From an uncultured Alphaproteobacteria bacterium (GTDB taxonomy: Bacteria > Pseudomonadota > Alphaproteobacteria > Rhodobacterales > Rhodobacteraceae): DNA of 44,718 nucleotides. Position numbers and translations under genes: made by a program. Where the stretch lies: assembly GCA_902524845.1 (NCBI GenBank), contig CABZEW010000006.1, positions 20,001-64,718 of the forward strand, read 5' to 3'. Positions 20,455 to 40,405 of the stretch are shown in pieces (position 1 is the first letter of the stretch; each line of letters opens with the position of its first letter). A model generated the notes under the pieces. It saw only the letters and a list, made by a program, of their open reading frames with translations. It did no database searches and was not told where the DNA came from.

Positions 20455-20477
20455 GGAACGAGAAAGGAGAGAGACCC

Positions 20478-22518: not shown

Positions 22519-22526
22519 TATGCTTA

Positions 22527-22736
22527 CTATTTACAATCCAGTCGACCATTTATTGCATTGAAGGGAGGTGTAGCCCCTTTCCTATCTTCAAAGTCCCTGA
22601 TATGTATGGCCTCATATTTTGATCGCTCCTCTGGATAATTGAGAATGGAGTATTCTACTGTTTTAATTCCCCATTCCTGGCGATCGATAGATTTGGCACG
22701 GTTTTTTATATTCCCCTTCCCAATATAAATTAACTA
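22527..22736 (-). pseudogene. GIY-YIG nuclease fragment (5'-truncated)
   Basis: About 70 codons open on the minus strand encode IYIGKGNIKNRAKS near the front, EWGIKTVEYSIL in the middle and KYEAIHIRDFEDRKGATPPF with FNAINGR at the end. This is the order of the YIG motif, catalytic Glu and C-terminal P-FN segment of GIY-YIG endonucleases. An in-frame stop precedes the motif and there is no start. It is probably the remains of a homing-type nuclease of the island, truncated next to the repeat unit starting at 22731. Confidence 0.6.
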
Positions 22737-22805
22737 TCTGATAAAAAATTGTCGAAATAACATAGGGTTACAGATTAGTGTGGCAGAGAGGGTCAATCCC
22801 CGCCA
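22731..22805 (+). repeat. Composite repeat unit a (left arm truncated)
   Basis: CTATCTGATAAAAAATTG is followed at the standard distance by AACATAGGGTTAC and then GTGTGGCAGAGAGGGTC ending in ATCCCCGCCA at 22805. Its middle 38 bases align without gaps to unit g; the 3' part carries four extra bases. The end GGGTCAATCCC with CGCCA looks like a tRNA T-arm plus acceptor end. It directly follows the nuclease fragment. Confidence 0.75.
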
Positions 22806-22860
22806 TTTACTTACATTGGTTTCCTTTTGAAAAAGTGAAAATATTAGCCGTCACATTGCC

Positions 22861-23508
22861 TCAAAGAACAAGTTCTATTCTAGTCGTTTTCGAGGGATTT
22901 CTGGATGAAAAATGTTTGAATTTTGTATGCTTCTCACACTTCTTGCATGACCACTCACTGATAAAGTTTGCAACTTGATAATTGTTCTTTCGTCGTTTAT
23001 CTGGGCTACCATCCTTATTTGCGAAAATCCAAACATGCTCAGTCTCTCTACCTTCTTTATAAGTGAGTTTCGTGCTTTGGCAGTGACTACAAACTCGTTT
23101 TGGGTCAGCAGAAAATATGTAAATGGCGTAACCAATAGAGGCTAAAATAAGAAATGTGTTTATTAAATACTCTGGGATTTGAAATTTTGGAATATAATCC
23201 TGTATCAAATAAATACCCACACAGACTGCTAAAAGAATAAATAGGTGTTTTCTCGAAACACTTAAAATATAAGGAACTAAATTAGGGAACAAGCTTTTTA
23301 AAACTTTAAAAGAAACTATAAATCCCCAATAAAAAACGAACAAAGTAATTACTAATGTAACCCCATAGGAGACGACATTAGTCACCATAGAAGATTTGCT
23401 GCCTTCAGGAAGAAATAACGCGAAAATCAATCCAATGGTAAAGATAGCGACCGCTACCAAAACACTATAAAGCAGGCTCTTAAAAAATTTTTTCATGTTT
23501 GTTTTCAA
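22861..23508 (-). CDS. Membrane protein with C-terminal zinc ribbon, unknown function
   Basis: Protein of 215 residues with about four transmembrane segments in residues 8-140 (such as LLYSVLVAVAIFTIGLIFAL and LFILLAVCVGIYLI). A cytosolic C-terminal domain has two cysteine pairs, CSHC and CKKC, forming a likely zinc ribbon. I do not recognise the family. Its 3' end faces repeat unit a, 56 bp away. Composition is AT-rich like the core genome, unlike the integrase module. Confidence 0.65.
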   Translation of the reverse strand: MKTNMKKFFKSLLYSVLVAVAIFTIGLIFALFLPEGSKSSMVTNVVSYGVTLVITLFVFYWGFIVSFKVLKSLFPNLVPYILSVSRKHLFILLAVCVGIYLIQDYIPKFQIPEYLINTFLILASIGYAIYIFSADPKRVCSHCQSTKLTYKEGRETEHVWIFANKDGSPDKRRKNNYQVANFISEWSCKKCEKHTKFKHFSSRNPSKTTRIELVL

Positions 23509-23594
23509 TTAAACGCAAAAAATATTTTATTGGTATTTTGTTTTATAATATATCTTGGAGTTGAAAGAAGCAAAAATTGAAGGACTGAAAGAGT

Positions 23595-23792
23595 ATGTGG
23601 CGAATTCTATTTTTACCTGGATTTCTGTTTTTGTGGATAAGCTATTACATGCCCATTGAATGGGGAAAACAACGAAACATAGGCAGGTTTCGTCGTCAGT
23701 ACAAAGAGGCACCTGTAATTTGGTCAGCTTTCTATACTGTTTGCTTCTTAATCATGTTGGCCCCTATTTATTTACCGTTTTTCATTGGCTAG
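23595..23792 (+). CDS. Small membrane protein (65 aa), hypothetical
   Basis: Two hydrophobic stretches (ILFLPGFLFLWISYYM and FYTVCFLIMLAPIYLPFFIG) flank a basic loop with GKQRNIGRFRRQY. GAAAGAG precedes the ATG by only two or three bases. It lies between two minus-strand genes. No family is recognised; it is possible that it is not expressed. Confidence 0.45.
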   Translation: MWRILFLPGFLFLWISYYMPIEWGKQRNIGRFRRQYKEAPVIWSAFYTVCFLIMLAPIYLPFFIG

Positions 23793-23798
23793 CTAAAC

Positions 23799-24431
23799 TT
23801 ACTGATGGCCTGGCCAATAAGCTTCTATCATCCAGAGAGGCTGATTACGTTTTTTTTGAATTTGTTTTATTTCACCTATAACCTTCTTATAATCTCTTGG
23901 CTTGTATAGAGACCAACTTTGTATATCTTTACTATTCCAGAATTTTCTTTTTTCTTCCATTTCAGAATCTGCATAAATTAGTCGTAATTTATTTTTTATT
24001 GAATTAATAAGAAGTCTATCGATTGGTGGATGAATAACGCTAACTTTTTCTTTTTCAGTGGCTGAGAGATTACCAATAAATTGCGTTACAAAAATTGTCT
24101 TTAGATAGCAATTTAATAATTTTGCAGCTACTCCATAAGTGAACCTTGGTTTCTCACCAGACTTCGTATCGTTTAAAATCTCCTTTGCTTTCTTTGTTAA
24201 GTCCTTACATTTTGCATCATGCCATATGTCGAACTCATTAACCTCTTTCAGATAGTGGAATCCTTTGGCCAGTTTTTCCAAATCTACCTCTTTAAGTAGT
24301 GCTACCCCTTTAGATACCTTAAAGCGACACTTTTGAGATGCCCCAGCAGCTGTTGATGCAGCCCACGCTGCATATCTAAACACATGGTCTTCTTGTCCAT
24401 ATTGCTCAATATTTTCTTTTTTACTTTTCAT
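23799..24431 (-). CDS. Conserved hypothetical protein
   Basis: Soluble 210-residue protein with FRYAAWAASTAAGAS near the N-terminus and VIHPPIDRLLINSIKNKLR near residue 130. I believe these occur together in a widespread uncharacterised accessory-genome family, though I cannot name it. No catalytic motif is evident. It lies divergent from the membrane/HTH chimera at 24509. Confidence 0.6.
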   Translation of the reverse strand: MKSKKENIEQYGQEDHVFRYAAWAASTAAGASQKCRFKVSKGVALLKEVDLEKLAKGFHYLKEVNEFDIWHDAKCKDLTKKAKEILNDTKSGEKPRFTYGVAAKLLNCYLKTIFVTQFIGNLSATEKEKVSVIHPPIDRLLINSIKNKLRLIYADSEMEEKRKFWNSKDIQSWSLYKPRDYKKVIGEIKQIQKKRNQPLWMIEAYWPGHQ

Positions 24432-24508
24432 CTAAAAGTTACAAATCAATTGAAAAAATTCTGTATTTTGTGCATTCTTTTCTGAGAGTGTTTACATAAA
24501 GGCCTGTC

Positions 24509-25219
24509 ATGATTATGTCGAAATTGCGATTTTTGTGGATTCCAATTATTGCTTTCTTTGCCTTCTTTTTTTATTTCATCATATATACTAATCTTCCAAT
24601 AAATGATGGTGAACAACTTTTTTTTAGCAATGTTCTCAGCGGACTGATGGGTGCCGTTGTCGTCGCACTAGTCACCGCCTCAATATTTATCTTTCAGCAA
24701 AAAATTGAAGCAGATGAGCAAAAAGAAAGGCTCATGTATGAAAAGAAATTAATTCTCTATCAAAAAGTCAGTAAAGAGCTGTCAGAGGCATTGGCAGATG
24801 GTGAATTGAGTATAGGCGAAATTCAGACGCTTAGAAAATTTGAATATGAACTTATCTTAATCGCAAAGAAACCTGTCGCTGAAGCTTTTCTTTCATTGAT
24901 TCAAAAAGGAGAGGAATTTGATCAAGAAAAATCAGGTGAGCTTGGTACTTATCTGAAAACAAGTATCATGGAATTCTTGACAGAGGCCAGAAGAGATCTG
25001 GATGTTTTAAGCCACGCATCAGACACTGAAGAGATGCAGAACTGGTTGGGTAATGAAGACACCCAAGATACGCTAACAAAAACGAAAAGACGTTTTACGG
25101 AGCAACAAAAAATAAAAATTCTTAAAGAGTGGAGAACAGCCAAAGTTAAACAAGATGTTTTAAAGATGTATAAAGTCTATGATTCACAAGTTCGAAACTG
25201 GGACAAAAGATATCCTTAA
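24509..25219 (+). CDS. Membrane-anchored coiled-coil protein with C-terminal transposase-like HTH
   Basis: 236 residues. Two transmembrane segments (~8-28 and ~40-65) are followed by a long charged helical region (66-180) with EADEQKERLMYEKKLILYQK. The last ~45 residues, RRFTEQQKIKILKEWRTAKV followed by LKMYKVYDSQVRNWDKRY, look like the helix-turn-helix of IS3-type OrfA proteins. A membrane protein ending in a transposase HTH is unusual and suggests a fusion. The start could be the second Met (24515). Repeat unit b begins 47 bp after its stop. Confidence 0.65.
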   Translation: MIMSKLRFLWIPIIAFFAFFFYFIIYTNLPINDGEQLFFSNVLSGLMGAVVVALVTASIFIFQQKIEADEQKERLMYEKKLILYQKVSKELSEALADGELSIGEIQTLRKFEYELILIAKKPVAEAFLSLIQKGEEFDQEKSGELGTYLKTSIMEFLTEARRDLDVLSHASDTEEMQNWLGNEDTQDTLTKTKRRFTEQQKIKILKEWRTAKVKQDVLKMYKVYDSQVRNWDKRYP

Positions 25220-25266
25220 CTAACTGATATATTAGTGTTCAAAAATTTTATCTTTTCATATGAACA

Positions 25267-25363
25267 GTTTGTATGAATATTTGTGGGTAGAAACCCTTTC
25301 TTGTAAAATATTTTATACATAACAATGGCTTACGCGAGATTGTGGCAGAGGGTCAATCTGTCA
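25267..25363 (+). repeat. Composite repeat unit b (full length)
   Basis: Complete 97-base unit: left arm GTATGAATATTTGTGGGTA (22 of 23 bases of the arm equal unit g), spacer with TTGTAAAATA, box AACAATGGCTTAC, and core TTGTGGCAGAGGGTCAATC ending TGTCA. It aligns to unit g without a gap over the entire length, about 71 of 97 identical by hand. Confidence 0.85.
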
Positions 25364-25451
25364 TATCCCTTTTTTTACACAACTTTTTGCGTAAGTTAAA
25401 GAATGAGGTATTATTTCAATAGGGTTAGAAGAAATTGAAAAGGAGACACCA

Positions 25452-25901
25452 ATGGCTTACTCTGGAAAATGTGCCTGTGGAAATATAAAATTTACTTTTG
25501 AACACGATCCCATGATGCACTTCATGTGTCACTGTACTGACTGTCAGGTTATGTTTAATGGGTCATTTGAGGGTTACGCAATTTCTAGAGATGAGTTATC
25601 CGTAGAGGGTGAGCTTTCAACATATACCTATGCTGGAGGAAGTGAACTAAGTCTTCATGTTAATTTTTGTGGGATGTGTAGCACCAAGATATTTACTCAA
25701 CCAGATGTTCTAGAAGGTATGATCTATGTGCCTGCTGGATTACTAAGAGACCAAATTGAATTTAAGCCAAAAGTAGAAATCTGGGCTGGAACAAGACCAT
25801 CATGGACTAACAAACCAGAATGCTTGGTAGAATCTTATACTGAAAATGGAACTATAGAACGCATTTCAAGCTTACTGGAAAATTTGGAGCAAAGAACCTG
25901 A
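25452..25901 (+). CDS. GFA/CENP-V family zinc protein
   Basis: Small zinc enzyme of the glutathione-dependent formaldehyde-activating (GFA) fold, 149 residues. Zinc ligands are visible as CACG at the N-terminus, CHCTDC near residue 27 and CGMCSTK near 75. The family name derives from S-hydroxymethylglutathione formation, but most members have unproven substrates. AAGGAG lies nine bases before the ATG. It is the first of three such genes in the island and is flanked by repeat units b and c. Confidence 0.85.
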   Translation: MAYSGKCACGNIKFTFEHDPMMHFMCHCTDCQVMFNGSFEGYAISRDELSVEGELSTYTYAGGSELSLHVNFCGMCSTKIFTQPDVLEGMIYVPAGLLRDQIEFKPKVEIWAGTRPSWTNKPECLVESYTENGTIERISSLLENLEQRT

Positions 25902-25934
25902 TTTTTGTTTTACAATTTCTCATTAAGTTAAGTA

Positions 25935-26032
25935 GTTTGCTAAACATGTAGTAGTACAAACCATTTATAAACATCTAGTTCTTTTAGCTAACAAAGGCTT
26001 ACACAACAGCGTGGCAGAGGGCCACTCCGCCC
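25935..26032 (+). repeat. Composite repeat unit c
   Basis: Degenerate left arm AGTTTGCTAAACATGTAGTAG, then AACAAAGGCTTAC at 25990-26002 and core AGCGTGGCAGAGGGCCACTC ending CGCCC at 26032. The core contains the hairpin GTGGC-AGAGG-GCCAC. The unit follows the GFA gene. Confidence 0.75.
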
Positions 26033-26166
26033 ATTAGGTCTTCAACTATTAGTTCATATTTGAGTAGTTTTCTCATATAACTTGTAGATGGAGAAAAATT
26101 ATTTAAAATTTGAGTTCCATTTATGAATAACCTTAGAAAAATTCGCTAAACTCACGGAGAAAAAAA

Positions 26167-26490
26167 ATGAAATTTATAGTTTTAGGAAAATATACCAAGC
26201 AAGGAACTGATGGATGGTTGGACAATCCAGACGAAGATCGTCACGCAATGCTAAGCGGACTCTCAAAAAAAATTGGAGGAAACTTACTAGATCTCTCTTA
26301 TACACGTGGAAAATATGATGTGGTTGCTACCGTCGAAGCGCCTAGTTTAGACACAATGACAGCTTTGAAATTATCTATGATGAAAACTGGAGCCATTGCT
26401 GAATTAACTATTCTGGAAGACATAAACTTAAACGTAATCGCAAAACAGGGCGCGGAAATGATTGGGTTGTACAAGGCACCAGGAAAATAA
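26167..26490 (+). CDS. GYD-domain protein
   Basis: 107-residue ferredoxin-like protein: FIVLGKYTKQG at the start and RGKYDVVATVEAPSLDTMTA in the middle, the GYD family signature position. The biochemical role is unknown. ACGGAG lies just before an A-run and the ATG. It lies between repeat unit c and a FAS1 gene fragment. Confidence 0.8.
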   Translation: MKFIVLGKYTKQGTDGWLDNPDEDRHAMLSGLSKKIGGNLLDLSYTRGKYDVVATVEAPSLDTMTALKLSMMKTGAIAELTILEDINLNVIAKQGAEMIGLYKAPGK

Positions 26491-26574
26491 AAAAACACAC
26501 GTAAGGGAGAATTATAGTTAGATCTGGGCATCCGTAATTTTTGTTGGACATATTATTTACTTAAAACAGAACGC

Positions 26575-26721
26575 ATGGAGAGGCACCAGCAGTAAACGGC
26601 AAGGCTCCCAATAAAGTTAATGGGCGGAAAAGTAATGATAAATGAAGCCACTGTCATAGCCCCAGATGTCAATGCGAACAACGCCGTGATACACATTATC
26701 GACACAGTTTTGCTTCCATAA
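26575..26721 (+). pseudogene. FAS1 (fasciclin) gene fragment
   Basis: About 145 bases match the 3' end of the intact FAS1 gene (33470-33613): GCACCAGCAGTAAACGGCAA, AAAAGTAATGATAAATGA, CCAGATGTCAATGC and the end ATACACATTATCGACACAG to TTTTGCTTCCATAA. Small indels break the frame and the first two thirds of the gene are missing. The downstream hairpin and repeat arm are preserved in the same order as at the intact gene. Confidence 0.85.
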
Positions 26722-26729
26722 AAGTTTCA

Positions 26730-26757
26730 GGCTTGATCAATGAAAGTTGGTCAAGCC
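26730..26757 (+). terminator. Hairpin after FAS1 fragment
   Basis: GGCTTGATCAA/TTGGTCAAGCC, an 11-bp stem with one T-G pair and loop TGAAAG. It is the same stem as after the intact FAS1 gene, with a different loop. The T-run is poor, so termination is likely but unproven. Confidence 0.6.
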
Positions 26758-26793
26758 ACTTAAAACAGGGTCAAACACACACATAGACGAACA

Positions 26794-26838
26794 GTTTGTA
26801 TGAACATTTGTAGGTAGAGAGATTATCTGGTCAAATAC
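26794..26838 (+). repeat. Composite repeat unit d (left half only)
   Basis: GTTTGTATGAACATTTGTAG, then GTAGAGAGATTATCTGGTC as in unit g. The right half with the GGCTTAC box and core is absent, because the sequence runs into the 3' end of the minus-strand GST gene, whose stop lies inside the unit. Confidence 0.75.
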
Positions 26839-27488
26839 CCTGAGGACAGCTGAGCACTTTCCTGAAACCCTGGCCTCTGTTCCAATTTACAAAACCAGAT
26901 GAAGGCATATTTGTACGTTTTAATGTCGATACCAACTCTATCTGCAGTCCTTAAAGTATGAAACCCAGTTATATCTGCCACAGTCAATTTATTGCAAACC
27001 AAAAAATCTAATGACTGTAAGTGGGCATCTAGACGTGTTAAGAGAGTTTTTGCTGACTCAATTGCCCAGTTTGTAACAGCAGGATTTTGTTGAAAATCAG
27101 TTCTTGTGCCTGGTATCACAGCACCTTTAAACATTTCGAATTTGTTTCTAGCTCCGTGAAATAGTGGTAGGTAACCATCGTTTTCAAGCCTACGATTCCA
27201 CATTTCAATTAATGCTCTTTCCTTCGTATTTGCTCCAAACAACTTTATTTCTGAATTACTTATTTGCTCCAAGTAGTTGCAAATTGCTAGGGTCTCAGAA
27301 ATAACTGTTCCGTCATCTAGTTCTAGAAATGGAATGCAGTTAAAGGGGTTCATGGTTTTAAAGGGTTCTTTAAAGTGCTCACCTTCCATTATGTTTAATT
27401 GTACAGTCTCGACTTGTATATTTGTTTCCTTTAAAAATTTTTCGACTCTCTTAGAAGAAGGCGCAGCTTCAAATTGATATAACTTCAT
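26823..27488 (-). CDS. Glutathione S-transferase family protein
   Basis: 221 residues with an N-terminal thioredoxin-like domain (MKLYQFEAAPSSKRVEKFL, NPFNCIPFLELDDGT, ISETLAICNYLE). A helical C-terminal domain follows (TRLDAHLQSLDFLVCNKLTV, ADITGF). It conjugates glutathione to electrophiles or acts as a peroxidase; the substrate is unknown. The final residues, SGYLTR, are encoded by the reverse complement of the repeat-d arm. The native C-terminus may therefore have been replaced by an inserted repeat. Confidence 0.85.
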   Translation of the reverse strand: MKLYQFEAAPSSKRVEKFLKETNIQVETVQLNIMEGEHFKEPFKTMNPFNCIPFLELDDGTVISETLAICNYLEQISNSEIKLFGANTKERALIEMWNRRLENDGYLPLFHGARNKFEMFKGAVIPGTRTDFQQNPAVTNWAIESAKTLLTRLDAHLQSLDFLVCNKLTVADITGFHTLRTADRVGIDIKTYKYAFIWFCKLEQRPGFQESAQLSSGYLTR

Positions 27489-27531
27489 TTTTTCTTATCC
27501 CTAAATAACTTTAACAGTTTTACGTTCACAA

Positions 27532-27586
27532 TTACTTGGTTGCCAATACATAATTAAGACATGCTTTATAAGGTTTTTTTGCCCAT
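27532..27586 (-). pseudogene. Methyltransferase C-terminal fragment
   Basis: On the minus strand the bases encode YKACLNYVLATK and a stop, almost the same as YKACLNYITATK and stop at the end of the intact methyltransferase at 38623. DNA identity extends over ATGGGCAAA and TATAAAGCATGTCTTAATTA. Only the last 18 or so codons remain, between the acyl-CoA ligase end and the GST start. Confidence 0.75.
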
Positions 27587-27591
27587 TAACC

Positions 27592-29151
27592 TCATTTAAG
27601 GCTAAATTTGTGGGTTAGAATATTATTCTTTAACTCGAATTTGAGAACTTTGCCTGTGCCACCTCTTGGAAGCTCAGCGACTTCAATCGTATACACTGGC
27701 CACTTAAATTTAGCTAATTTGCCCTCAAGAAACCCCCATATTCTTTCAACATTAAGCACACTACCTTCTTTAATCTTCATAAAAGCACAACCTACTTCTC
27801 CCCATTTCTCATCAGAAACCCCAATAATTGCAACCTCTATAATCTCACTCATCTTATTAAGTTCGTCCTCAACCTCAGCTGGATAAACGTTCTCTCCACC
27901 CGATATATACATATCCTTAATTCGATCTTTGATATAAATAAATTGTTGGTCGTCAATTTTACCAATGTCTCCAGTTTTGAACCACTCTCCATCAAATGAG
28001 GTCTCATTTGCGTTCTTGTTATTCCAGTATCCTGGTGTGACTGTGGCACCCCTGATCTGAATTTCACCTAACTCATCTGTTTTTGCTATTGTACCATCAG
28101 TCTTTACTATTCTTACTTCATTGAATATCGTCGGTTGTCCTGCTGAACCAACTTTGAACGGTATGTTTTCCTTTGACAATAAACAACCACTAGCCGTTGT
28201 TTCTGTCATGCCCCATGCCTCTTGTATTATAACGCCTTTATTTAGCCACCATTTTACCAAACTGATGGGAACAGCCTCTGCACCAGTAATTACAGTCTCT
28301 AAGTTCGAAAAGTCTATAGAGTCAACTATAGGAGTATTTTTCATGGCATTGAATGCTGCTGGTACTCCAAAAATTGTAGTAATTCCTAGGCTAGGTGTGT
28401 CGATAGCTTTTAAGGTTTTTTCTGGATCAAAACTTCGCATTATAACTAAAGTTGCGCCCGCAAAAAGCGTTGGAAAGCATAGGGCAAGGCACCCAATATG
28501 AAACATGGGCATATTAGCTAAAGCCACTCTGTCGTAATGTGAAACCCCTAATAGCAAAGCACCGACAGAACCAAAATGCACCATTTTATGAGTTATTATT
28601 ACTCCTTTCGGTTTACCTGTAGTTCCAGAGGAATACATCAACAAACACTGATCGTCGAAGAACCTTTCGTTTAAATTTTTGTAGGGAGAATAACTCTGGA
28701 CTATATCTTCATAGTCAGACTGTTTAGTCAGTGAGTTAAAACTTATTGTTTTTAGTTGATTTTCATCAAAATCTTTCAGCACCTCATCCCAAATGCTGTT
28801 AAACTGCTGATCAACAAACACTATCTTAGGTTCCGCATCGTTTACTATGTAAAGCACCTCGCTAGCAGTAAGTCTGTAGTTAATGGGAAGACATATTACT
28901 CCTATCCGCCAACAAGCAAATATTATCTCTATGATGACCGAGGAGTTGAAACACAGAAAAGCTATTCGGTCCCCTTTATTAACTCCATTGGAAACGAGGT
29001 AATTTGAAAGAGTGTCTATACGCTTATCTAGAGAGTTAAATGATAATGTAGAGTTTGTTGATAAATCAATTAATGCAGGCTTTTCTGGATTTAAGAGGCC
29101 ATAACGTTTTATCGAGTCAATTACAGGAATTTTTTTATTGTTTGCCAACAT
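27592..29151 (-). CDS. Acyl-CoA synthetase / AMP-dependent ligase
   Basis: ANL-family enzyme that activates a carboxylic acid to its acyl-CoA through an acyl-AMP. The P-loop motif is LMYSSGTTGKPKGVIITHK (~172-190), the aromatic-rich motif is WGMTETTASG, the hinge region is WFKTGDIGKID, and the catalytic Lys lies in PRGGTGKVLKFEL. Length 519 fits medium- or long-chain fatty acyl-CoA ligases; substrate unknown. The last residues THKFSLK are encoded across the TAAATTTGTGGGT arm word, so the very C-terminus may be repeat-derived. Confidence 0.88.
   Translation of the reverse strand: MLANNKKIPVIDSIKRYGLLNPEKPALIDLSTNSTLSFNSLDKRIDTLSNYLVSNGVNKGDRIAFLCFNSSVIIEIIFACWRIGVICLPINYRLTASEVLYIVNDAEPKIVFVDQQFNSIWDEVLKDFDENQLKTISFNSLTKQSDYEDIVQSYSPYKNLNERFFDDQCLLMYSSGTTGKPKGVIITHKMVHFGSVGALLLGVSHYDRVALANMPMFHIGCLALCFPTLFAGATLVIMRSFDPEKTLKAIDTPSLGITTIFGVPAAFNAMKNTPIVDSIDFSNLETVITGAEAVPISLVKWWLNKGVIIQEAWGMTETTASGCLLSKENIPFKVGSAGQPTIFNEVRIVKTDGTIAKTDELGEIQIRGATVTPGYWNNKNANETSFDGEWFKTGDIGKIDDQQFIYIKDRIKDMYISGGENVYPAEVEDELNKMSEIIEVAIIGVSDEKWGEVGCAFMKIKEGSVLNVERIWGFLEGKLAKFKWPVYTIEVAELPRGGTGKVLKFELKNNILTHKFSLK
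27603..27615 (+). repeat. Isolated arm word TAAATTTGTGGGT
   Basis: Thirteen bases identical to 20442-20454 upstream of the integrase, here lying inside the 3' end of the acyl-CoA ligase gene. No box or core follows at the expected distance. It could be a lone arm remnant or chance. Confidence 0.4.
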
Positions 29152-29230
29152 CGAGTCCTCTCCTCAAATCTAACCAAATTTCTACTTAATGATCGAGTAT
29201 TAAATAATAAATTATTTAATAAAAATATGA

Positions 29231-29260
29231 AACGAGTGCCGCTGAAGGCCACTCCACCTC
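29231..29260 (+). repeat. Composite repeat unit f (core only)
   Basis: GAGTGCCGCTGAAGGCCACT ending CCACCTC matches the 3' core of unit c, sharing GGCCACTCC. The left arm and the GGCTTAC box are not recognisable. It lies between the acyl-CoA ligase start and the next minus-strand gene. Confidence 0.5.
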
Positions 29261-29277
29261 AAAATTGAAAATTGGAG

Positions 29278-29589
29278 TCATAATTTATGTTGCTCAAACT
29301 TTTCAGGCTTTATGTAAGCTTGTACAACTTCCCCTTCTAAGAACCATTGATCCTTTACCTTGGCTCCATGCTTTTCAAAGTTCTTATCTCTTTGAATTTT
29401 AGCTTCATCAGCTTTTTCTTGATTTGGAAAAACTGAAATAGCAATCACCGAGGTCGGAGTAGTTCTTATGCGTAATAGTATTTCAGCATCTGGAAACGTT
29501 TTTGAAGATTCTTTATTATATTGCTCTGATATTTCAAGAAATTCCTCTTCAGATCTCCATTCCACCATATTGATCCTTGCAATGCTCAT
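29278..29589 (-). CDS. Small ABM-like protein, unknown function
   Basis: 103 residues in a pattern suggesting a dimeric alpha-beta barrel: MSIARINMVEWRSEEEFLEI, a long helix, SVIAISVFPNQEKADEAKIQ, and EGEVVQAYI. The size and strand-helix order resemble antibiotic-biosynthesis-monooxygenase folds, but I cannot assign a family. It is divergent from the hotdog gene at 29724 over a very AT-rich 134-bp gap that must hold both promoters. Confidence 0.6.
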   Translation of the reverse strand: MSIARINMVEWRSEEEFLEISEQYNKESSKTFPDAEILLRIRTTPTSVIAISVFPNQEKADEAKIQRDKNFEKHGAKVKDQWFLEGEVVQAYIKPEKFEQHKL

Positions 29590-30128: not shown

Positions 30129-30140
30129 AAAGATTAAGTC

Positions 30141-33613: not shown

Positions 33614-33621
33614 ACAGTTTA

Positions 33622-33649
33622 GGCTTGATCAACGTTACTTGGTCAAGCC
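33622..33649 (+). terminator. Hairpin terminator after FAS1
   Basis: GGCTTGATCAA, loop CGTTAC, TTGGTCAAGCC: an 11-bp stem with one T-G pair, nine bases after the stop, followed by ACTTTAAATAAATT. The stem is identical to that at 26730-26757 while the loop differs, which suggests selection on the structure. Confidence 0.65.
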
Positions 33650-33682
33650 ACTTTAAATAAATTGCGACGCACACTTAAAATG

Positions 33683-33779: not shown

Positions 33780-33954
33780 TAAAAAGCTACTGCCAGATCT
33801 TCGAAGTTCCCAAATTTAATTTTGTCAAGCTGAAACCAACTTTTGAGCCAAGGTCAGCTGTCTGAGGGGGTTTAGTATAAAATGTGCACTAATACCCCTT
33901 TAGTTTAAAACTGTTTTCTGTTAAGTGTAGTTTACTTTTTATTAGGAGAGACAT

Positions 33955-34776
33955 ATGAATTTTATAGCAGCACCAATGCCGGCTAATGAGGTTAGAAGGC
34001 AAGAAGCAGTTGAGCGATTAAAAATAAAAGGTACCGACCAACATGACGTTATGGTTGTGTATAGTGAAATGGCCCAAGAATTAACTGGATTTGCAGCTGT
34101 TGCCGCGACTCTATTTGATGCGGATAGCCAGTATTCACTTGCTTCGTGTAATTTCCCTGGCAATAGCGGTGATAAATTAATGGATAGAGCAGAGAGCATA
34201 TGTTCTTATACTATTCTAAGTAATGAGCCCACCTTAATTCCTGACACTGTGTCTGATCAAAGAACAGCTGGTCATCCCGCTGTTACGTCTGGGATGTGTA
34301 AATCATATGCGGGCTTTCCGATCATAAATAAAGACAATTATGCTTTAGGTAGTTTTTGTCTAGTTCACCCCGAGAAGAAGGCGTTAACCGAGCAGCAAAT
34401 TATTTTAATACAAAAACTTGTTGCCCGCCTTGCTCATCAATTAGATACACAAAGTGAACAGAGAGAAATAACTTCAACTAAAATGCAAAATGCAATTAAT
34501 GAATTTTCAGAAGTTGCCCCAAATGCATCTTTAGATGATTTTAAATATTTTATGAGTTTATGCAGTGATAAAAAAGTATCAGAACCGTTATTAAAAAACC
34601 TAATCGACTTAGGCTTATGTGTTCCTGAAGATGATAAAACATCATTAACCCAGGAAGGGAGAAAGCTACAACAAAAAATGGGGTTACAAACACAAATTCT
34701 ACAAAAAATGAAAATTGAGGGAGATGCGGCTAACAATATGTTCAACGATATGTTGTCACAGTTGGGAGAGATATAA
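33955..34776 (+). CDS. GAF-domain protein
   Basis: 273 residues. A GAF sensor domain spans ~20-165: VVYSEMAQELTGFAAVAATL, then SICSYTILSNEPTLIPDTVS and CKSYAGFPIINKDNYALGSF. A C-terminal helical part (~180-273) ends in KMGLQTQILQKMKIEGD. There is no kinase, GGDEF or output domain, so it is probably a stand-alone ligand or redox sensor. AGGAG precedes the ATG at a normal distance. Its stop overlaps the next start (TAATG), so the two proteins are coupled and may interact. Confidence 0.82.
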   Translation: MNFIAAPMPANEVRRQEAVERLKIKGTDQHDVMVVYSEMAQELTGFAAVAATLFDADSQYSLASCNFPGNSGDKLMDRAESICSYTILSNEPTLIPDTVSDQRTAGHPAVTSGMCKSYAGFPIINKDNYALGSFCLVHPEKKALTEQQIILIQKLVARLAHQLDTQSEQREITSTKMQNAINEFSEVAPNASLDDFKYFMSLCSDKKVSEPLLKNLIDLGLCVPEDDKTSLTQEGRKLQQKMGLQTQILQKMKIEGDAANNMFNDMLSQLGEI

Positions 34777-35117
34777 TGTATGCAAAAGTTTACCAATATA
34801 AATTCCCTGGCATAAGTGAAGCTAAAGTAGCCGCCGCTTATTGTTCAGACAAATTGGGGCAGAAAATTGATGAGCACAATTTTCATGGCCTAGGTATATT
34901 AATAAGTCAAGAAGGAGACTTAACTATATTAATAAAGTTTGATGATGTGGTAAAATTGAAATCATTTGATAAGGCAGCAGATCAATTTGTTCATGATCTT
35001 AAAACTTCTTTTGTCTTTAAAGAAAATAAATATGCAGGGATATATGTATATAACTATGAAAAAGAAGCTACAATAAACGAGATTAAGCTCACTGGCCCCG
35101 CGAAAGTATCAAATTAG
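34776..35117 (+). CDS. Small protein coupled to the GAF gene, unknown function
   Basis: 113 residues: MYAKVYQYKFPGISEAKVAA at the start, LGILISQEGDLTILIKFDDV in the middle, YAGIYVYNYEKE near the end. The strand-helix pattern suggests a ferredoxin-like alpha-beta fold similar to ABM or GYD proteins, but I cannot assign it. Translational overlap with the GAF gene implies a joint function. Confidence 0.65.
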   Translation: MYAKVYQYKFPGISEAKVAAAYCSDKLGQKIDEHNFHGLGILISQEGDLTILIKFDDVVKLKSFDKAADQFVHDLKTSFVFKENKYAGIYVYNYEKEATINEIKLTGPAKVSN

Positions 35118-35182
35118 CATTTACAATTTAAAACTTTAAAAGAGTTTTAAGTAGAAGGGTAAGGGATTTGCAAGGTTATTTA

Positions 35183-35219
35183 GGCATACAGAGAAATAGG
35201 GAAGAGGGCCAGCCTGCCA
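35183..35219 (+). repeat. Composite repeat unit i (right half)
   Basis: GGCATAC followed at exact spacing by AATAGGGAAGAGGGCCAGCC ending TGCCA, matching the box end and core of unit g. The left arm is not clear. The sequence after it, CTACAAAGTACTAC, parallels CACAAAGTATAAC after unit g. Confidence 0.6.
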
Positions 35220-35290
35220 TCTACAAAGTACTACAAAAAATGACTTTAATGTGTAGTGTACAGTTACAACAAACTTCTTTTTTTTGAAAA

Positions 35291-35707
35291 TTGGCTAAAG
35301 AATATAAATATAAGGTAGATAAATCATTTATTGATTTTAATGGCCACCTAGCGGAATTTGGTTATTACTATTACGGTGTAGATGGGTTAAGAAAGCTTTG
35401 TGAAGATAAAGGCTGTACTCCGAAGCTTTACGAAGAATTGAAAATTGGTCCTATTACGTTCCAAACTACCATATCCTTTGCAAAGGAAGTTCGAGAGAAT
35501 TCAATAATTATCGTAAATCCAAGAATTACTTGGATATCAGAGGATTGCAAAAAGTGGTCTAGCCAATCTAATATTCTGAGTGCGACACTTGGGCTTTGCG
35601 CTACAATTGTAAGTAAGGGCGCTTTCATGGACCACACAAGCAGGAAGGTAAGACCACCTCCAGAAGAATTAGAAGAAAAATGGAGACTATTATTAGAAAT
35701 TGACTAA
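35291..35707 (+). CDS. Hotdog-fold thioesterase-like protein (copy 2)
   Basis: 138 residues with FIDFNGHLAEFGYYYYGVDG near the N-terminus, clearly homologous to the copy at 29724 but diverged elsewhere, with an extra segment SSQSNILSATLGLCATIVSK. The start is TTG at 35291 (MAKEYKYKV) with no evident Shine-Dalgarno. It has no methyltransferase partner here, unlike copy 1. Confidence 0.72.
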   Translation: MAKEYKYKVDKSFIDFNGHLAEFGYYYYGVDGLRKLCEDKGCTPKLYEELKIGPITFQTTISFAKEVRENSIIIVNPRITWISEDCKKWSSQSNILSATLGLCATIVSKGAFMDHTSRKVRPPPEELEEKWRLLLEID

Positions 35708-35944
35708 GAAATGGTTGGTTTTTTCTTTTAAATCGCACAGAAAAAAATAAAGATAGCAAAGCTGCATTTATTACAAATATGTTTGCTCCTGGACCTATTT
35801 TGAAAATAAAAAACCGTTTGAGATAAAAATTATGCTTGAATAGTGACCGTTAAACATTAACTCGAAAGGTCACAGGTGCTCTAAACGGGAGCGTTGGCGT
35901 AATCGTTTTTGACAGTAAATTTGTGAAAGAAAAGGATGAATCAG
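35708..35944. other. Intergenic region before the amidohydrolase
   Basis: About 237 bases. It is AT-rich, then richer in G+C from 35862 (GGTCACAGGTGCTC, AACGGGAGCGTTGGCG). I see no gene and no clear copy of the composite repeat. AAAGGA at 35931-35936 is the ribosome-binding site of the next gene. Confidence 0.45.
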
Positions 35945-37114
35945 ATGAATATTTTGCCAGAAATTAGTGTAAACTCTAAATCCCTAGAAGAGATATATAA
36001 AGATCTTCATTCCCACCCAGAGCTCGGTTTCGAAGAAGAGCGGACATCAAAAATTGTGCAAGAGAGATTAAAGGAATACGGCGTAGATGAAATACATTCG
36101 GAGATTGGGAAAACCGGTGTAGTAGGTATAATTAGAGGTAAAGATGTTGGAGGGAATAGGAGAATTGGCTTAAGGGCTGATATGGATGCTCTTCCAATTC
36201 AAGAGGATACTGGTCTTGCCTATTCATCAAAGGTTGATGGAAAAATGCATGCATGCGGCCACGATGCACACACAACCATGCTTCTAGGCGCGGCAAAGTA
36301 CCTGGCTAAAACCAGAAATTTTAGTGGGACAGCGGTTTTAATATTCCAACCTGCAGAGGAAGGTCAGGGTGGTGCAACTAAAATGCTTAACGATGGATTG
36401 TTCCAAAAATTCCCTTGCGATGAGATTTATGGTATACACAACGACCCCAACGGAAAAAATGGCGAGATAGGCATTTGTAAGGGAAAAGCTATGGCGGGCG
36501 CGGCCATATTTGATATTAATATTGATGGGATAGGTAGTCATGCGGCAATGCCTCATCAATCAAAAGATCCGATCATTATTGCGCATGAGCTCATTACCCA
36601 GCTTCAAAGTATTTTAAGTCGAAATGTGCCGCCTTTAGAAACCTTAGTTCTATCAATAACAAAAATCCATGCGGGATCTGCATTTAACGTCATACCCAGT
36701 AATTGTGCTATTGCTGGGACCGTTAGATATTTCTCGAACGAAGTTTACGAAATGGTTGAACAGCGTTTCAAAAATATATGTAAGGGATTAGAGTTAAGTA
36801 ATTGTGTAAAAATCCAGTTGAATATTAAAAAGCTTTTCGATGTTTTATTAAACGATGATGAAATATCAGATCATTACATGGATGCTGCAGAAAAAATTGT
36901 TGGTGAAAAAAACATTAATAGAAATCAGCTACCTTCTACCGGCTCCGAAGATTTCGCTGATATGCTACAACATGTGAAGGGTGCATATTGTTTTATTAGC
37001 CATTCTGGGAAAGCTCCTCTTCATAGTCCTCACTTTACTCTCGATATGGACATACTTCCAATTGGGGCCTCAGTATTAGCAAAAGTGGTTGAAGACAGGT
37101 TAATCAAAAGCTAA
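35945..37114 (+). CDS. M20-family amidohydrolase (hippurate hydrolase-like)
   Basis: About 389 residues. Dinuclear-zinc peptidase that cleaves N-acyl amino acids or amides. Motifs in order: LHSHPELGFEEERTS, GLRADMDALPIQEDTG, HACGHDAHTTMLLGAAKYLA (zinc site), FQPAEEGQGGATKML (catalytic Glu pair), GSHAAMPHQSKDP, and LPSTGSEDFADM. I prefer ATG 35945 over 35936 because the AAAGGA box would overlap the earlier start and is eight bases from this one. Substrate unknown. Confidence 0.9.
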   Translation: MNILPEISVNSKSLEEIYKDLHSHPELGFEEERTSKIVQERLKEYGVDEIHSEIGKTGVVGIIRGKDVGGNRRIGLRADMDALPIQEDTGLAYSSKVDGKMHACGHDAHTTMLLGAAKYLAKTRNFSGTAVLIFQPAEEGQGGATKMLNDGLFQKFPCDEIYGIHNDPNGKNGEIGICKGKAMAGAAIFDINIDGIGSHAAMPHQSKDPIIIAHELITQLQSILSRNVPPLETLVLSITKIHAGSAFNVIPSNCAIAGTVRYFSNEVYEMVEQRFKNICKGLELSNCVKIQLNIKKLFDVLLNDDEISDHYMDAAEKIVGEKNINRNQLPSTGSEDFADMLQHVKGAYCFISHSGKAPLHSPHFTLDMDILPIGASVLAKVVEDRLIKS

Positions 37115-37155
37115 ATAACAAAAAATAGGCTCGAAGCAGAATATTGTATAAGGCG

Positions 37156-37213
37156 ACTCTGTCGAAAATTCCTTAAAAATATTGATCTATCCACAATTCG
37201 TATCATACTTAAC
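37156..37213 (+). repeat. Upstream repeat k
   Basis: A segment ending TATTGATCTATCCACAA and TCGTATCATACTTA (37179-37212), very similar to 39657-39694 (about 85% over the last 37 bases by eye). A weaker match precedes it (GGCGACTCTGTCGA). It lies just upstream of the kinase start, as its partner lies upstream of the second GFA copy. Confidence 0.65.
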
Positions 37214-37250
37214 GTGCAGAAGTTTGAAGCAGTTCAATGGGCTAGATAAA

Positions 37251-38567
37251 ATGTCAGAATTTATAAAATTGAAACTTGAAAATGCGTCATTGGGTGAGAT
37301 TGCAGAGTTGGCACTAAAGGCAATTGATCCAAATCCTCCAGCAAAAAAAACCATAGATGTTAAAGATGTTTCTGGTAATAGTGGTGCTAAAACGTATATC
37401 TGTTCCATTGACGACGTTCCAAAATGCATCGTCAAAGTGAGTAGTTCCAAAAGCATAATGAGTTCCCATCCAATAACGCAAAAGAGAGTATCAATCGCTA
37501 CTGAAGTTCTGCGATCTAAAAATATTGCTCCTCCAATTATCTCAAAAGGAATTGATTTTCATATTGAGCGTTCAGCTGGCGTTTCTGTAATGCAGGATTT
37601 CTTTCATTTTAACGACGAATTAGCACCACCTCATAAGGTAGCTCAAGTTTTAGCAAAATTGCACTCAACACCAACTAAATGGTATGATCAGTTAAGAGCT
37701 GAATTTTTAAATGGAGATAAGTTTTTGTCTTCAGCTTTACATCGAGTACCACTTCATGCTCCCTTTTGGTGCCTGCCTTGGTCAGGAATCGATACAAAAA
37801 TGCCAGTCCTTGGAGTAGGTAATCCAGATCCCGCAATTGCAAAAAAGGTTTTTGACCTTGGTATACAAACTGGAGTTTATGAAAAAGTCATGCGGTGTGA
37901 GGCATTTTACCCTACCTCGGAAGCAGCTAAACGGCAGGTAGTAGTTCACAATGATTTTAAGCCAGATAACTTATTATATGATCCTGACACCAATAAGCTC
38001 ACGGTGATAGACTATGATCTGGTACAAGTTGGAGCTGCCGTGATGGATTTCGGATTACCATACATGATGTGGCTAGGATCGAGGTTTACTGATTTCACAT
38101 ATAGAAGAGATTTTATAAAGTCATATCTTAATTATTCAGACCTTCCAACAGACGAAAAAAGTGTACGAGATATGATGGTTGATTGTGAAATAAATACTAT
38201 AGTGGCATTTCCTGGTCTATTAGCAAATATTTATGATGCAGAAATCCCGCTGCTTCGAGGAGTTGATCACCCAACAGCTAGATCAGGATATATAGCTCAA
38301 TCTGCTGCTGCATCTCCAACAGGATTGGAAATAGTTGACTTATTGGCCGAAGCTGTTTCAAAAGTTAAATCGAATGCTGATTTAATCACTTCGAGCCTTG
38401 AAGAAGGGCTTGTGGTAACGATTTTCAAGAATAAGGGCTTGGGATCAGATTTACTTTATTCTTGGCTTAAAGAAATGCAAAAAAATAATATGCTCCGTCT
38501 TTTTGGAATCGCCGAGACCGATGAGGCTGAGCTATTTGTTTCGAAACACGCTAAAAAGAAAAACTAG
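37251..38567 (+). CDS. Aminoglycoside-phosphotransferase-like small-molecule kinase
   Basis: 438 residues with a protein-kinase-like fold of the APH/choline kinase group. The catalytic loop is VVHNDFKPDNLLYD (HxDxxxxN) and the metal Asp is in VIDYDLVQVG. The Lys in CIVKVSSS is the likely ATP contact. A C-terminal extension (~350-438) is of unknown role. The open frame extends to a TTG at 37182, but that part is repeat k sequence; MSEFIKLKL at 37251 is the better start. Substrate unknown. Confidence 0.8.
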   Translation: MSEFIKLKLENASLGEIAELALKAIDPNPPAKKTIDVKDVSGNSGAKTYICSIDDVPKCIVKVSSSKSIMSSHPITQKRVSIATEVLRSKNIAPPIISKGIDFHIERSAGVSVMQDFFHFNDELAPPHKVAQVLAKLHSTPTKWYDQLRAEFLNGDKFLSSALHRVPLHAPFWCLPWSGIDTKMPVLGVGNPDPAIAKKVFDLGIQTGVYEKVMRCEAFYPTSEAAKRQVVVHNDFKPDNLLYDPDTNKLTVIDYDLVQVGAAVMDFGLPYMMWLGSRFTDFTYRRDFIKSYLNYSDLPTDEKSVRDMMVDCEINTIVAFPGLLANIYDAEIPLLRGVDHPTARSGYIAQSAAASPTGLEIVDLLAEAVSKVKSNADLITSSLEEGLVVTIFKNKGLGSDLLYSWLKEMQKNNMLRLFGIAETDEAELFVSKHAKKKN

Positions 38568-38622
38568 ACGAATATCTCTTTTTATATATGAAGCTGGAAT
38601 ATGACATCACAATTCAACTGGA

Positions 38623-39471
38623 TTATTTAGTCGCAGTTATATAATTAAGACATGCTTTATAGCTAATTTCTTTGCCCATTTTTCTTTTTTCACAAAGTTG
38701 AATGATTTCGCTTTTTATCATTGACATTTTTTCATTTGATAAATTTACTTCAGATAAGATCCTCGCTCTTGGCCCAATCCCCATGAGAAGTTCTGCATCT
38801 TTCTCAACACTATCTTTTGTTGAAATGGATGTATAAACCTTATCTATATTTATATTTTTAAATCCAGCAGATTTTAATACTTCCTTAACATATTCACGGT
38901 CACTGAACGCAAAGGGGCCTGGATCTTTTGTGACCTCTGGAAGCACTTTTTGGGTGTATTTAGTAATGATATCCATGCCTTCAGTTATAAAGTCATTCTC
39001 CATCAAATTTGTCCAACATACAAAATTAAGAGATCCATTTGTCCGCATTGAACCTAGAATATTTTTAAAAGCCTCAGAAGGATCTTTAAAGAACATCACA
39101 CCGAATCGAGATATAACTTTATCAAAGTAATTTTGATCAAAAGAATAATTTTGCGCATCACAATGAACAAATTTCATTCCTTCAATATTTGAGAACTTGC
39201 TTTTTGCATGATTTAGCAAGGTATGCGATATATCTGCTCCTACTACATAACCGCCATCAATTAATAATTTTGACACTCGAAAAGTTGTGTTACCTCCTCC
39301 ACAACCAATATCTAAAACTTTGTCTGACGCTTTTATCTTTGCTCTTGAAAAAAGTTCATTGGTCAATATGGATAATCGTTCATTTAATGCGTCCTCATTT
39401 TTGACCCACTTAGGTCCAGATTTTTCGTTCCAATATTCGGATTGTTCTATATTGATAATTTTTTGTTTCAT
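38623..39471 (-). CDS. Class I SAM-dependent methyltransferase (UbiE-like fold)
   Basis: 282 residues. SAM site VLDIGCGGGNTTFRVSKLL (~53-71), GADISHTLLNHAKSKF, HCDAQNYSF, and VISRFGVMFFKDP (motif IV region). Substrate unknown. The N-terminal EYWNEKSGPKWVKNEDALNE is often seen in this group. The C-terminal tail YKACLNYITATK is duplicated as a fragment at 27532. It is the only large minus-strand gene between 32946 and 40563. Confidence 0.85.
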   Translation of the reverse strand: MKQKIINIEQSEYWNEKSGPKWVKNEDALNERLSILTNELFSRAKIKASDKVLDIGCGGGNTTFRVSKLLIDGGYVVGADISHTLLNHAKSKFSNIEGMKFVHCDAQNYSFDQNYFDKVISRFGVMFFKDPSEAFKNILGSMRTNGSLNFVCWTNLMENDFITEGMDIITKYTQKVLPEVTKDPGPFAFSDREYVKEVLKSAGFKNINIDKVYTSISTKDSVEKDAELLMGIGPRARILSEVNLSNEKMSMIKSEIIQLCEKRKMGKEISYKACLNYITATK

Positions 39472-39722
39472 ATCGTTACCTTAGCTTTTGGATATCATAG
39501 CACATTTATCTCACGGTAAGATTACAATCGCTTCTTATGTACAAAAAAGCTAAGATCTTAGTTGTGCAACTAACTTAACTACTTGAAGGGGTTCGATGTA
39601 AGGTAAAAGGATCTCGCGACAATTATGTAAGAGCGCTAGTCGACCTCGGAAAACCTAAAACTATTGATCTATTCACAAATCGTCTCATACTTATATTACA
39701 ATTAATCATTTGGAGATATCTT
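39472..39722. other. Intergenic region with repeat l
   Basis: 251 bases. The left part (39490-39600) shows nothing recognisable. From about 39625 it holds GTAAGAGCGCTAGTCGACC and then the TATTGATCTATTCACAA segment at 39657-39694 matching repeat k. GGAG at 39712-39715 serves the following gene. Confidence 0.55.
39657..39694 (+). repeat. Upstream repeat l
   Basis: AACTATTGATCTATTCACAA followed by ATCGTCTCATACTTA. Partner of repeat k at 37179-37212. Both lie 28-40 bases before the start of a plus-strand gene, so they may mark the 5' junction of a cassette or share regulation. Confidence 0.65.
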
Positions 39723-40319
39723 ATAGGCAAAATTAAATGTTATTGTGGTAAATGCGAGATTACTATTTTTGCAACCAAGGCTCTCGGTTCCTTCCTTTGC
39801 GGGTGCCAAGATTGTCGCCAAGCGGTTAAATGGGCCGAATTTAAAGGAGGGCAAAAAGGTGAAGACTTACAGAAATCTATTTACGTTCCATCCGATATTT
39901 TTAAAGTGAAAGGTAAAGAAAGTATGAAACCCTTTTTACTTCGAGAGGGTGGGCAATCGATAAGGGTTTACTGCGTTACTTGCTATTCTTTATTGGGAGT
40001 TGATTTTCCAGCCTATAATGACCAAAGATTCATGTTTATTGAAGATCACTGCATGACAGACATTGATATGTCAATGGACCCGGCGATAGCGATAAATATG
40101 GTCGATTATCCAAAAGATAAGGAGCCAATTTTACCTGATGGTATAACAGTTGTGAATTCTATTCATGACCCTGACAGAGACTGGACCCAAATACCTGAAG
40201 TAAAGAAAATTAGAGAAACACCTCCTTCCAATAAGGGCATACGTTTTTCAGAGCTAATAAAAGAGCTGGGAAGCCCGACAATTCTTGGGTTTGAACCAGG
40301 TGGCTCGGTCAAGAAATAA
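39723..40319 (+). CDS. GFA-like zinc protein, copy 2, with ATA in place of the start codon
   Basis: Aligned codon by codon with copy 1 (30759), the reading frame is open from 39723 and gives the same 198 residues, including CYCGKC, CGCQDC and CVTC. The first codon is ATA where copy 1 has ATG, and GGAG sits seven bases before it. From the first ATG (39906) only 137 residues would be made and two of three zinc motifs lost. It may be translated weakly from ATA, from ATT at 39708, or be a recently silenced gene. Confidence 0.7.
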   Translation: MGKIKCYCGKCEITIFATKALGSFLCGCQDCRQAVKWAEFKGGQKGEDLQKSIYVPSDIFKVKGKESMKPFLLREGGQSIRVYCVTCYSLLGVDFPAYNDQRFMFIEDHCMTDIDMSMDPAIAINMVDYPKDKEPILPDGITVVNSIHDPDRDWTQIPEVKKIRETPPSNKGIRFSELIKELGSPTILGFEPGGSVKK

Positions 40320-40329
40320 GTAAGCTAAG

Positions 40330-40405
40330 TATTTGTTTATATAAGATTATCTGATAAACTCTTTGCAAAATAACGAAGGCTGAAAGAGAAGAGTCAAATA
40401 GGAAC
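40330..40405 (+). repeat. Composite repeat unit j (decayed, last copy)
   Basis: TATTTGTTTATA, then AAGATTATCTGATAAACTC, then AAAATAACGAAGGCTGA at nearly the standard spacing (one base short against unit g). The core is no longer clear (AGAGAAGAGTCAAATA). It starts 10 bases after the stop of GFA copy 2 and is the most distal recognisable copy from tRNA-Ser. Confidence 0.65.

Follow-up and report, generated by a model that had tools for sequence, protein, structure and literature searches.

The 44,718-nucleotide stretch of DNA analysed here (the window; G000:C6:20001-64718) comes from an uncultured alphaproteobacterium of the family Rhodobacteraceae, whose genome, G000, comprises 1.95 Mb in 89 contigs and is estimated to be ~74% complete. 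Behind its tRNA-Ser(GCT) gene lies an array of composite repeat units. We consider it quite probable that this array is a tRNA-anchored additive island, which would have arisen by serial, probably integrase-driven, accretion and exchange of small, mostly non-autonomous cassettes resembling cis-mobilizable elements (CIMEs), complemented by homologous recombination between units. Comparison with relatives reveals a unit confined to a single strand, a core shared with the tRNA gene, an empty site, presence or absence of segments bounded by units, reassortment of these segments, and segment identity above that of the backbone. The interpretation put forward in an initial annotation of this DNA, namely minimal cassettes flanked by attachment (att) sites and served by a P4-type integrase at the tRNA end, is largely upheld by the 11-bp tRNA core, the empty site of relative G016 and the arm motif common to the units and the integrase end.

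Small-genome ocean bacteria vary in gene content from cell to cell, and the entry and exit of single genes is mostly unexplained. In the present case, the position of the join is resolved almost to single bases, with a named site, a candidate integrase and an empty site, and segments are up to 97% identical between species with a backbone identity of ~80%. This opens integron-like exchange without an integron to direct testing, and similar arrays can be sought in other genomes with the unit profile.

A composite repeat unit on one strand

The array of units is real: a profile hidden Markov model (HMM) built from 58 units of other genomes and none from the window, the training units having originally been traced from the window unit at 31351 (unit 6), recovered 8 of the 9 units claimed in the window. 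Seven of these were found with E<=7.4e-9 and the eighth weakly (13.6 bits, E 0.003); the control for false positives, 50 Markov shuffles plus the reversed window, scored at most 10.6 bits. The unit missed by the model, claimed at 29231, is followed by a 3' flank that in G005 follows a full unit, and the segments are 97.4% identical over 1517 bp. The units are the following.

22733..22805 (HMM 22733-22801), plus strand: unit 1, arm lost, 40.3 bits
25263..25362 (HMM 25269-25358), plus strand: unit 2, full length, diverged, core TCAATCTGTC, 63.8 bits
25961..26033 (HMM 25980-26030), plus strand: unit 3, right half good and left half poor, core CCACTCCGCC, 35.4 bits
26790..26837 (HMM 26796-26854), plus strand: unit 4, left half only, 34.6 bits
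29244..29258, plus strand: unit 5, bare right half-core CCACTCCACC, placed by synteny with G005
31351..31451 (HMM 31357-31449), plus strand: unit 6, complete, with arm, spacer, box, GTGGTAGAGGG and CCTGTCCGCCA, 88.3 bits
33679..33780 (HMM 33685-33777), plus strand: unit 7, full length, diverged, 31.7 bits
35166..35217 (HMM 35166-35216), plus strand: unit 8, decayed, the weak match above, also placed by synteny
40329..40409, plus strand: unit 9, core lost, 31.5 bits, same flanks in G010 and G012

Whole or worn, the unit is a site of ~95 bp that consists of an arm (ATTTGTGGGTA), a spacer, a box and a core. The complete unit (31357-31451) reads TTGTATGAATATTTGTGGGTA CAGA GATTATCTGGTAAAATA GGATTAAG ATAACAAAGGCTTACAGCGGAGTGTGG TAGAGGG CCTGTCCGCCA, and its core, the best kept, ends in the last 11 bases of the tRNA gene. 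The initial annotation had recognized neither the identity of the core with the tRNA 3' end nor the recurrence of the arm motif next to int. Its statement that all nine units share the same parts is true of 31351-31451 and fails for most of the others, which are incomplete or worn. Similarly, the match of 71 of 97 bases is correct for the pair 25267/31355 rather than for the pair named, 25267 and 33683, which agree at 53 of 97 positions. The claims on placement stand: all window units lie on the plus strand, 3' of tRNA-Ser(GCT) and on its strand, and 6 of the 9 begin <=70 bases from a plus-strand stop codon in the list of open reading frames (ORFs).

Scattering of the units across the genome had been named as an outcome that would speak against cassettes. 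Matches in G000 below E 1e-5 all fall within the array (4 of the 9 listed at E<=10), and the unit is thus not a scattered repeat in this genome, an explanation that we reject for G000. A miniature transposon or mobile repeat that inserts behind genes, the flanking genes being incidental, would likewise be short, present in many copies and often close to stop codons, as the units are. We nevertheless hold it to be very improbable, given that the unit is confined in G000 to one strand of the tRNA-Ser island, that the best-kept copies end in the last 11 bases of the tRNA, and that related flanks are mostly one-sided, whereas an inserted repeat would retain both.

Units extend beyond G000. In a genus sample of 22 genomes (G000 included), 20 of which are <90% complete, 15 contain units when one unit is used as BLAST query (E<=0.01), and a profile search of 27 fetched stretches located 65 units, spread over 15 genomes and 21 contigs. 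Where a contig carries tRNA-Ser(GCT) together with units (11 contigs), 38 of 38 units lie 3' of the tRNA and on its strand. Beyond the genus, a BLAST search with unit 6 against the other 384 of the 385 genomes sampled from the class returned no match with E<=1e-4, a search that diverged sites could escape.

tRNA-Ser(GCT), the integrase module and the empty site

The tRNA gene and the module directly behind it comprise the following features.

20233..20322, plus strand: tRNA-Ser(GCT), whose last 11 bases, CCTGTCCGCCA (20312-20322), form an attB-like core
20433..20455, plus strand: two tandem arm motifs, ATTTGTGGGTA/ATTTGTGGGTG, starting 112 and 124 bases past the tRNA end
20478..21689, plus strand: P4-type tyrosine integrase, open frame, with PF13356 (arm-binding), PF22022 and PF00589
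21698..21982, plus strand: AlpA/excisionase-like helix-turn-helix (HTH) protein (PF12728 1.5e-11, PF05930 2.2e-5; phrog_66 3.1e-12)
21991..22518, plus strand: HTH protein, weakly phage small terminase-like (phrog_7344 1.1e-6)

The arm-binding, central and catalytic domains of the integrase are all detected. Counted on both strands of 569,496 bases, the arm motif TTTGT[GA]GGT occurs 66 times on the tRNA strand versus 3 times on the opposite strand; 43 of the 66 lie in units, 17 at int-type left ends, 1 in an int-end remnant and 5 elsewhere. Those at left ends, where int is not whole in every case, are set 112 or 124 bases downstream of a tRNA 3' end or of a copy of its terminal 11 bases, and the tandem motifs of the window recur with identical spacing at the int-type left end of relatives. 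This suggests that arm-type sites flank the att site on both sides and would be read by the arm-binding domain of the integrase.

All 17 tRNA-Ser(GCT) genes examined end in CCTGTCCGCCA, and 7 of the 17 loci have an int-type left end (in G009, only ~205 bp of it). Among the other 10, 7 have tRNA flanks that recur directly after a unit elsewhere, six of them in another genome, as illustrated by the flank of G018, which equals a post-unit flank of G014 at 200/200 bp. For the seventh, in G010, the best match is on its own other contig, that to G009 being weak (71% over 92 bp). The tRNA flanks of G012, G007 and G002 were not found directly after any unit. In G016, the site is empty: the tRNA runs into a flank that is seen after a unit in G019, G006, G014, G012, G018, G007 and G005. 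G016 and G019 are collinear, with 92.6% identity over the 2.5 kb before the tRNA and 93.3% over the 5.6 kb after the array, and G019 carries 9.8 kb at the empty site of G016, with CCTGTCCGCCA on both sides. An empty site would equally result if an entire array had been lost. In the window, the flank that adjoins the tRNA in G016 is directly preceded by unit 8, and the stretch from ~35218 to 39476 is collinear with it.

Two fusions were observed. In G018, a unit is fused to a small-terminase-like gene exactly at an internal CCTGTCCGC, as an insertion at a secondary site would leave it; the matching sequence lies within the terminase-like gene of the window (22047-22055). In unit class L6, the left end of an int element is fused to a unit. 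A proposal that the terminase-like genes of G005 and G013 are split by a cassette was rejected, the genes being divergent homologues. Separately, in G012:C28 (array coordinates 9109-13396), a different element of ~4.3 kb lies before the int element and terminates in 26 bp copied from the tRNA 3' end; tRNA-Ser(GCT) thus seems to serve more than one family of elements.

A close integrase (>=89% identity) was found in 7 of the 22 genus genomes, G000 and six others, in a set in which most genomes are incomplete as noted above. Six integrase relatives come from isolates named 'AG-...', which we take to be marine single-cell genomes. Relatives in INPHARED (247 records) and PLSDB (669 records) are all <60% identical, and the search of IMG/VR gave one relative, at 36%. 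A single phage record gave a weak match (E 3e-3) to the terminase-like protein, and an exact-match search of IMG/VR with one degenerate pattern of the unit found it on no contig. Outside the window, at G000:C27:14388-15805, a second tRNA-Ser, with anticodon TGA, has an integrase relative (36% identity) directly 3' of it and is probably another island of the same kind. At G000:C2:13769-20568 (L137 = 8000-27999), three weak tRNA-like Rfam matches (29-32 bits) that ARAGORN did not call lie within 7 kb and are possible tRNA relics of a further array.

The type of integrase also bears on a true integron, that is, attC sites served by an IntI-type integrase. Small modules, one site after each of them, and sites that all lie on one strand are integron features. 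The integrase, however, stands beside a tRNA and has an Arm-DNA-bind_3 domain, the genes are found in either orientation, the best-preserved core corresponds to a tRNA 3' end, and single-stranded DNA of four window units folds no better than shuffles (z -0.23, -1.14, -1.18 and 0.50). We therefore give this explanation almost no credence and reject it on the attC fold (4 of the 9 window units) and on the type of the array integrase (PF13356 and PF22022, phage/P4), the rest of the genome not having been searched for IntI. A structured RNA or terminator at gene ends would explain why units sit just past stop codons; this is hardly more credible, since the two tRNAs are the sole Rfam matches at gathering score in the window and the fold signal is absent from the same four units under DNA parameters.

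Reassortment of segments and the position of the join

Among the 65 units, compared over 400 bp on each side, 78 pairs are alike in the left flank and 84 in the right, and only 8 in both. This dominance of one-sided sharing indicates that recombination of modules takes place at the unit. Synteny differs among relatives; identical synteny of all units was the other outcome that the initial annotation had set against its proposal. Left family L1 precedes R1, R3, R6, R9 and unclustered right flanks, and right family R1 comes after L1, L4, L8, L10 and others. Segments bounded by units on two sides number 55, of which 24 fall into 8 families and 31 are single. Family C1 (1.4-1.6 kb) occurs in eight genomes and seven left/right combinations, and C3 in three genomes and three contexts. 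The arrays of G014 and G006 (L7, C1, R3) differ from those of G018 and G007 (L7, R3) by one cassette, with flanks 98-100% alike. Unit-bounded segments are thus present, absent or reordered between relatives.

Segments are also frequently more alike than the genomes that carry them. Relative to a backbone of up to 2.5 kb 5' of the tRNA, 156 of 259 between-genome segment pairs, among them segments that lie past the last unit or run off a contig end, are >5 points more alike and 19 are >5 points less alike. The 1517 bp shared by G000 and G005 at 97.4% compare with a backbone identity of 79.4%. In a second backbone stretch (window 3044-6533), G000 is 81-83% identical to 15 of the 19 matching relatives. 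The flank distal to unit 9 is 95% alike between G000 and G010 or G012, and exchange therefore extends past the array.

Right-linked identity climbs at the first core position, unit column 85. The opening tetramer of the core tracks the right flank, with 0 of 2000 permutations reaching the observed value, also after removal of repeated left/right combinations, and L4 in G018 and G008 keeps 79 of 84 columns and splits at the core. Crossover at the core as the sole rule is rejected, some left-linked pairs breaking near column 42, which is what homologous recombination would give. In our reading, two processes are at work: crossover at the core and homologous recombination within the repeat. A core variant, GGTGAGGAGGGTCTCTCCGCCA or near it, precedes int-element left-end remnants from which the rest of the unit is absent in G017, G008, G003 and G012.

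In the mechanism that we propose, the unit would be the attR, or distal attachment site, of a cassette, made up of an integrase arm-binding site, a spacer with an accessory stretch, and a core. The int/AlpA module, or a cassette using the integrase in trans, would insert at the 3' terminus of tRNA-Ser(GCT) through a crossover at CCTGTCCGCCA; the insertion would restore the tRNA, displace older neighbours outward and leave one unit between adjacent cassettes. Repeated insertion would yield a one-strand array with the youngest cassette nearest the tRNA, and excision or exchange between units, through the integrase or through homologous recombination in the ~95-bp repeat, would remove and reassort cassettes. 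We infer that the integrase is the agent and acts in trans, that circles are formed, that events took this order, and that cassettes move between cells, perhaps by phage packaging.

Several observations weigh against this account, which is built on sequence comparison. The second arm set, by exact motif, occurs only at the int-type left end, and plain cassettes may therefore be poor substrates. Of the seven close integrases, one has an internal stop codon and one is in two pieces with stops. The 11-mer of the tRNA is exact in 9 of the 65 units, the remaining cores being variant or lost, and the core tetramers of the 41 units in shared right-flank families include CCTG (8), TCAA (12) and CCAC (6). 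TCAA or CCAC at the tRNA would break the acceptor stem, and insertion from unit to unit, other sites or decay are therefore needed: either cassettes of these types insert at units of their own type or the cores drift. Core bases were also somewhat associated with the left flank, 9 of 2000 permutations reaching the observed value before removal of repeated combinations (193 of 2000 after), and left-linked identity fades past ~column 42 in several pairs, e.g., L7/R2 versus L7/R3. Finally, three worn units at G008:C2:87663-91112 (L082) lie on a contig without tRNA-Ser(GCT). These three units face a tRNA-Ser(TGA) on the opposite strand.

Some of these points would suit an alternative in which the units are old direct repeats from a few ancient integrations and nearly all later reassortment was of the RecA type, between repeats and between species, without a working integrase. 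Breakpoints in the middle of the unit in some pairs, the resemblance of unrelated full-length units (~64-80% by stretch, usable as homology) and the fact that an intact close integrase was not seen in most of the incomplete genomes are in line with it. We regard this alternative as unlikely, though it deserves more weight than the others, since the tRNA and the unit share only 11 bp and yet several different segments adjoin the tRNA, core bases track the right flank, and, in G018, the join between a unit and an unrelated gene falls at a 9-bp core match.

Relation to known islands and gene content

tRNA-anchored additive islands, CIMEs and tycheposons are already known; the array differs from them in details and is integron-like in its working. 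Some of our literature searches, which covered a subset of PMC, returned no match, and we do not claim that such an array is absent from print. Additive islands, as portrayed in the portions considered of the respective reports, include those of Actinomarinales, where cassettes are added at tRNAs, part of the tRNA being directly repeated, and are exchanged between genera (PMC7771536), of Methylophilaceae, with recurring 20-bp repeats of the tRNA-Lys end alongside tycheposons (PMC10872708), and of Alteromonas (PMC4119200). They have in common with the array a conserved tRNA target, adjoining cassettes and tRNA-end direct repeats, and in the window and its relatives the cassettes next to a conserved tRNA vary, one relative has an empty site and the tRNA end is repeated over 11 bp. 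Unlike in the accounts of these islands, the repeat here is a composite of ~95 bp with an 11-bp tRNA part and an arm motif shared with the integrase, several cassettes are built around a single main gene, and the reassortment of flanks is quantified across 65 sites.

The tandem ssrA islands of Dehalococcoides also stack behind one RNA gene, with a 20-bp direct repeat, an adjoining conserved motif and, in 15 of 31, no integration module (PMC3146451). They use serine recombinases (DsiB/DsiA), and a shared arm motif is not described in the part of that report considered here, whereas the array has a tyrosine integrase. CIMEs, reviewed together with site-specific accretion (PMC5704250), are similarly att-flanked, devoid of integration or transfer genes and found in tandem at tRNA 3' ends. 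By the description in that review, in the sections concerned, they are decayed integrative and conjugative or integrative and mobilizable elements (ICEs/IMEs), whereas here cassettes of ~0.6-2 kb recur across species and contexts. Possible traces of ICE/IME ancestry were seen only in the int-end remnants of one unit class (L6), the other cassettes not having been traced. Families C1 (8 genomes) and C3 (3) are bounded by units and lack integrase and transfer genes in the one representative of each that was read; some of the units are partial and their att function is presumed.

The features of tycheposons used here belong in part to general knowledge of the group. The array combines a tyrosine recombinase with tRNA-flanked cargo, as they do, and in the portions considered of the relevant reports (PMC10872708, PMC11389934, PMC10803314) the marine bacterial hosts and a possible link to phage satellites are further likenesses. 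It differs in its tRNA-Ser(GCT), P4-type integrase and AlpA-like partner, the likeness being one of description. Phage satellites (PMC11389934, PMC10803314) such as phage-inducible chromosomal minimalist islands (PICMI) and P4-like elements share int and AlpA in a small integrated element, as far as the latter report was considered; a primase, which completes their int-alpA-primase set, is absent from the three main ORFs before unit 1, where the weak small-terminase-like gene takes its place.

Integron arrays, as commonly understood and as treated in part in PMC4119200, resemble the array in pairing a small gene block with one site, in the single orientation of sites, in reassortment and in an integrase at one end. 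Here, the att anatomy appears to be double-stranded and of the lambda/P4 type, the attC fold is lacking in the four units folded and IntI is lacking beside the array, and some genes are reversed. We tentatively raise the possibility, which we would not put at even chances, of a second gene-cassette system independent of integrons, in which a P4-type tRNA integrase would act, by way of a composite att site in double-stranded form, on a circulating pool of small cassettes that often hold one gene. The tRNA 3' end would take the part of attI and the ~95-bp unit that of attC, and the core tetramers (CCTG, TCAA, CCAC) would be compatibility classes determining which units are able to recombine.

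The segments between the units of the window, whose genes point both ways, are the following.

22806..25262, no strand assigned: segment 2, ORFs without Pfam match (four scanned)
25363..25960, plus strand: cassette of family C4, shared with G010, with a single GFA-family gene
26034..26789, plus strand: cassette of family C5, shared with G012, with a single GYD-domain gene and a 3' fragment of fasciclin
26838..31350, no strand assigned: composite of GST, AMP-ligase, small protein, thioesterase, methyltransferase and GFA, containing the stretch shared with G005
31452..33678, no strand assigned: ABM-domain protein, rhomboid and fasciclin
33781..40328, no strand assigned: distal segment with GAF protein, thioesterase, M20 peptidase, APH-like protein, methyltransferase and GFA copy

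None of the 10 scanned island ORFs matches PADLOC models of defence systems. In representatives from other genomes, 8 of the 9 scanned ORFs have a Pfam match, and the main ORFs encode flagellin (two versions), a guanylate-cyclase-like protein, RecQ, enoyl-CoA hydratase, ABM, fasciclin and GST; the C1 copy read contains fasciclin and a rhomboid fragment, and the C3 copy a GST-like gene. The two flagellin versions (L076:1168-2106, minus strand, and L057:10858-11691, plus strand) come from different species and have equal end types (R4..L4), and the array may therefore swap flagellin alleles. A GFA-like gene is present twice in the window (30759-31058 and 39723-40022, 86% alike), with a unit after each copy. 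The 3' end of fasciclin and the bases that follow it are likewise repeated, at 77% (26605-26785 and 33497-33677), again with a unit after each copy, and this is likely the scar of recombination between cassettes.

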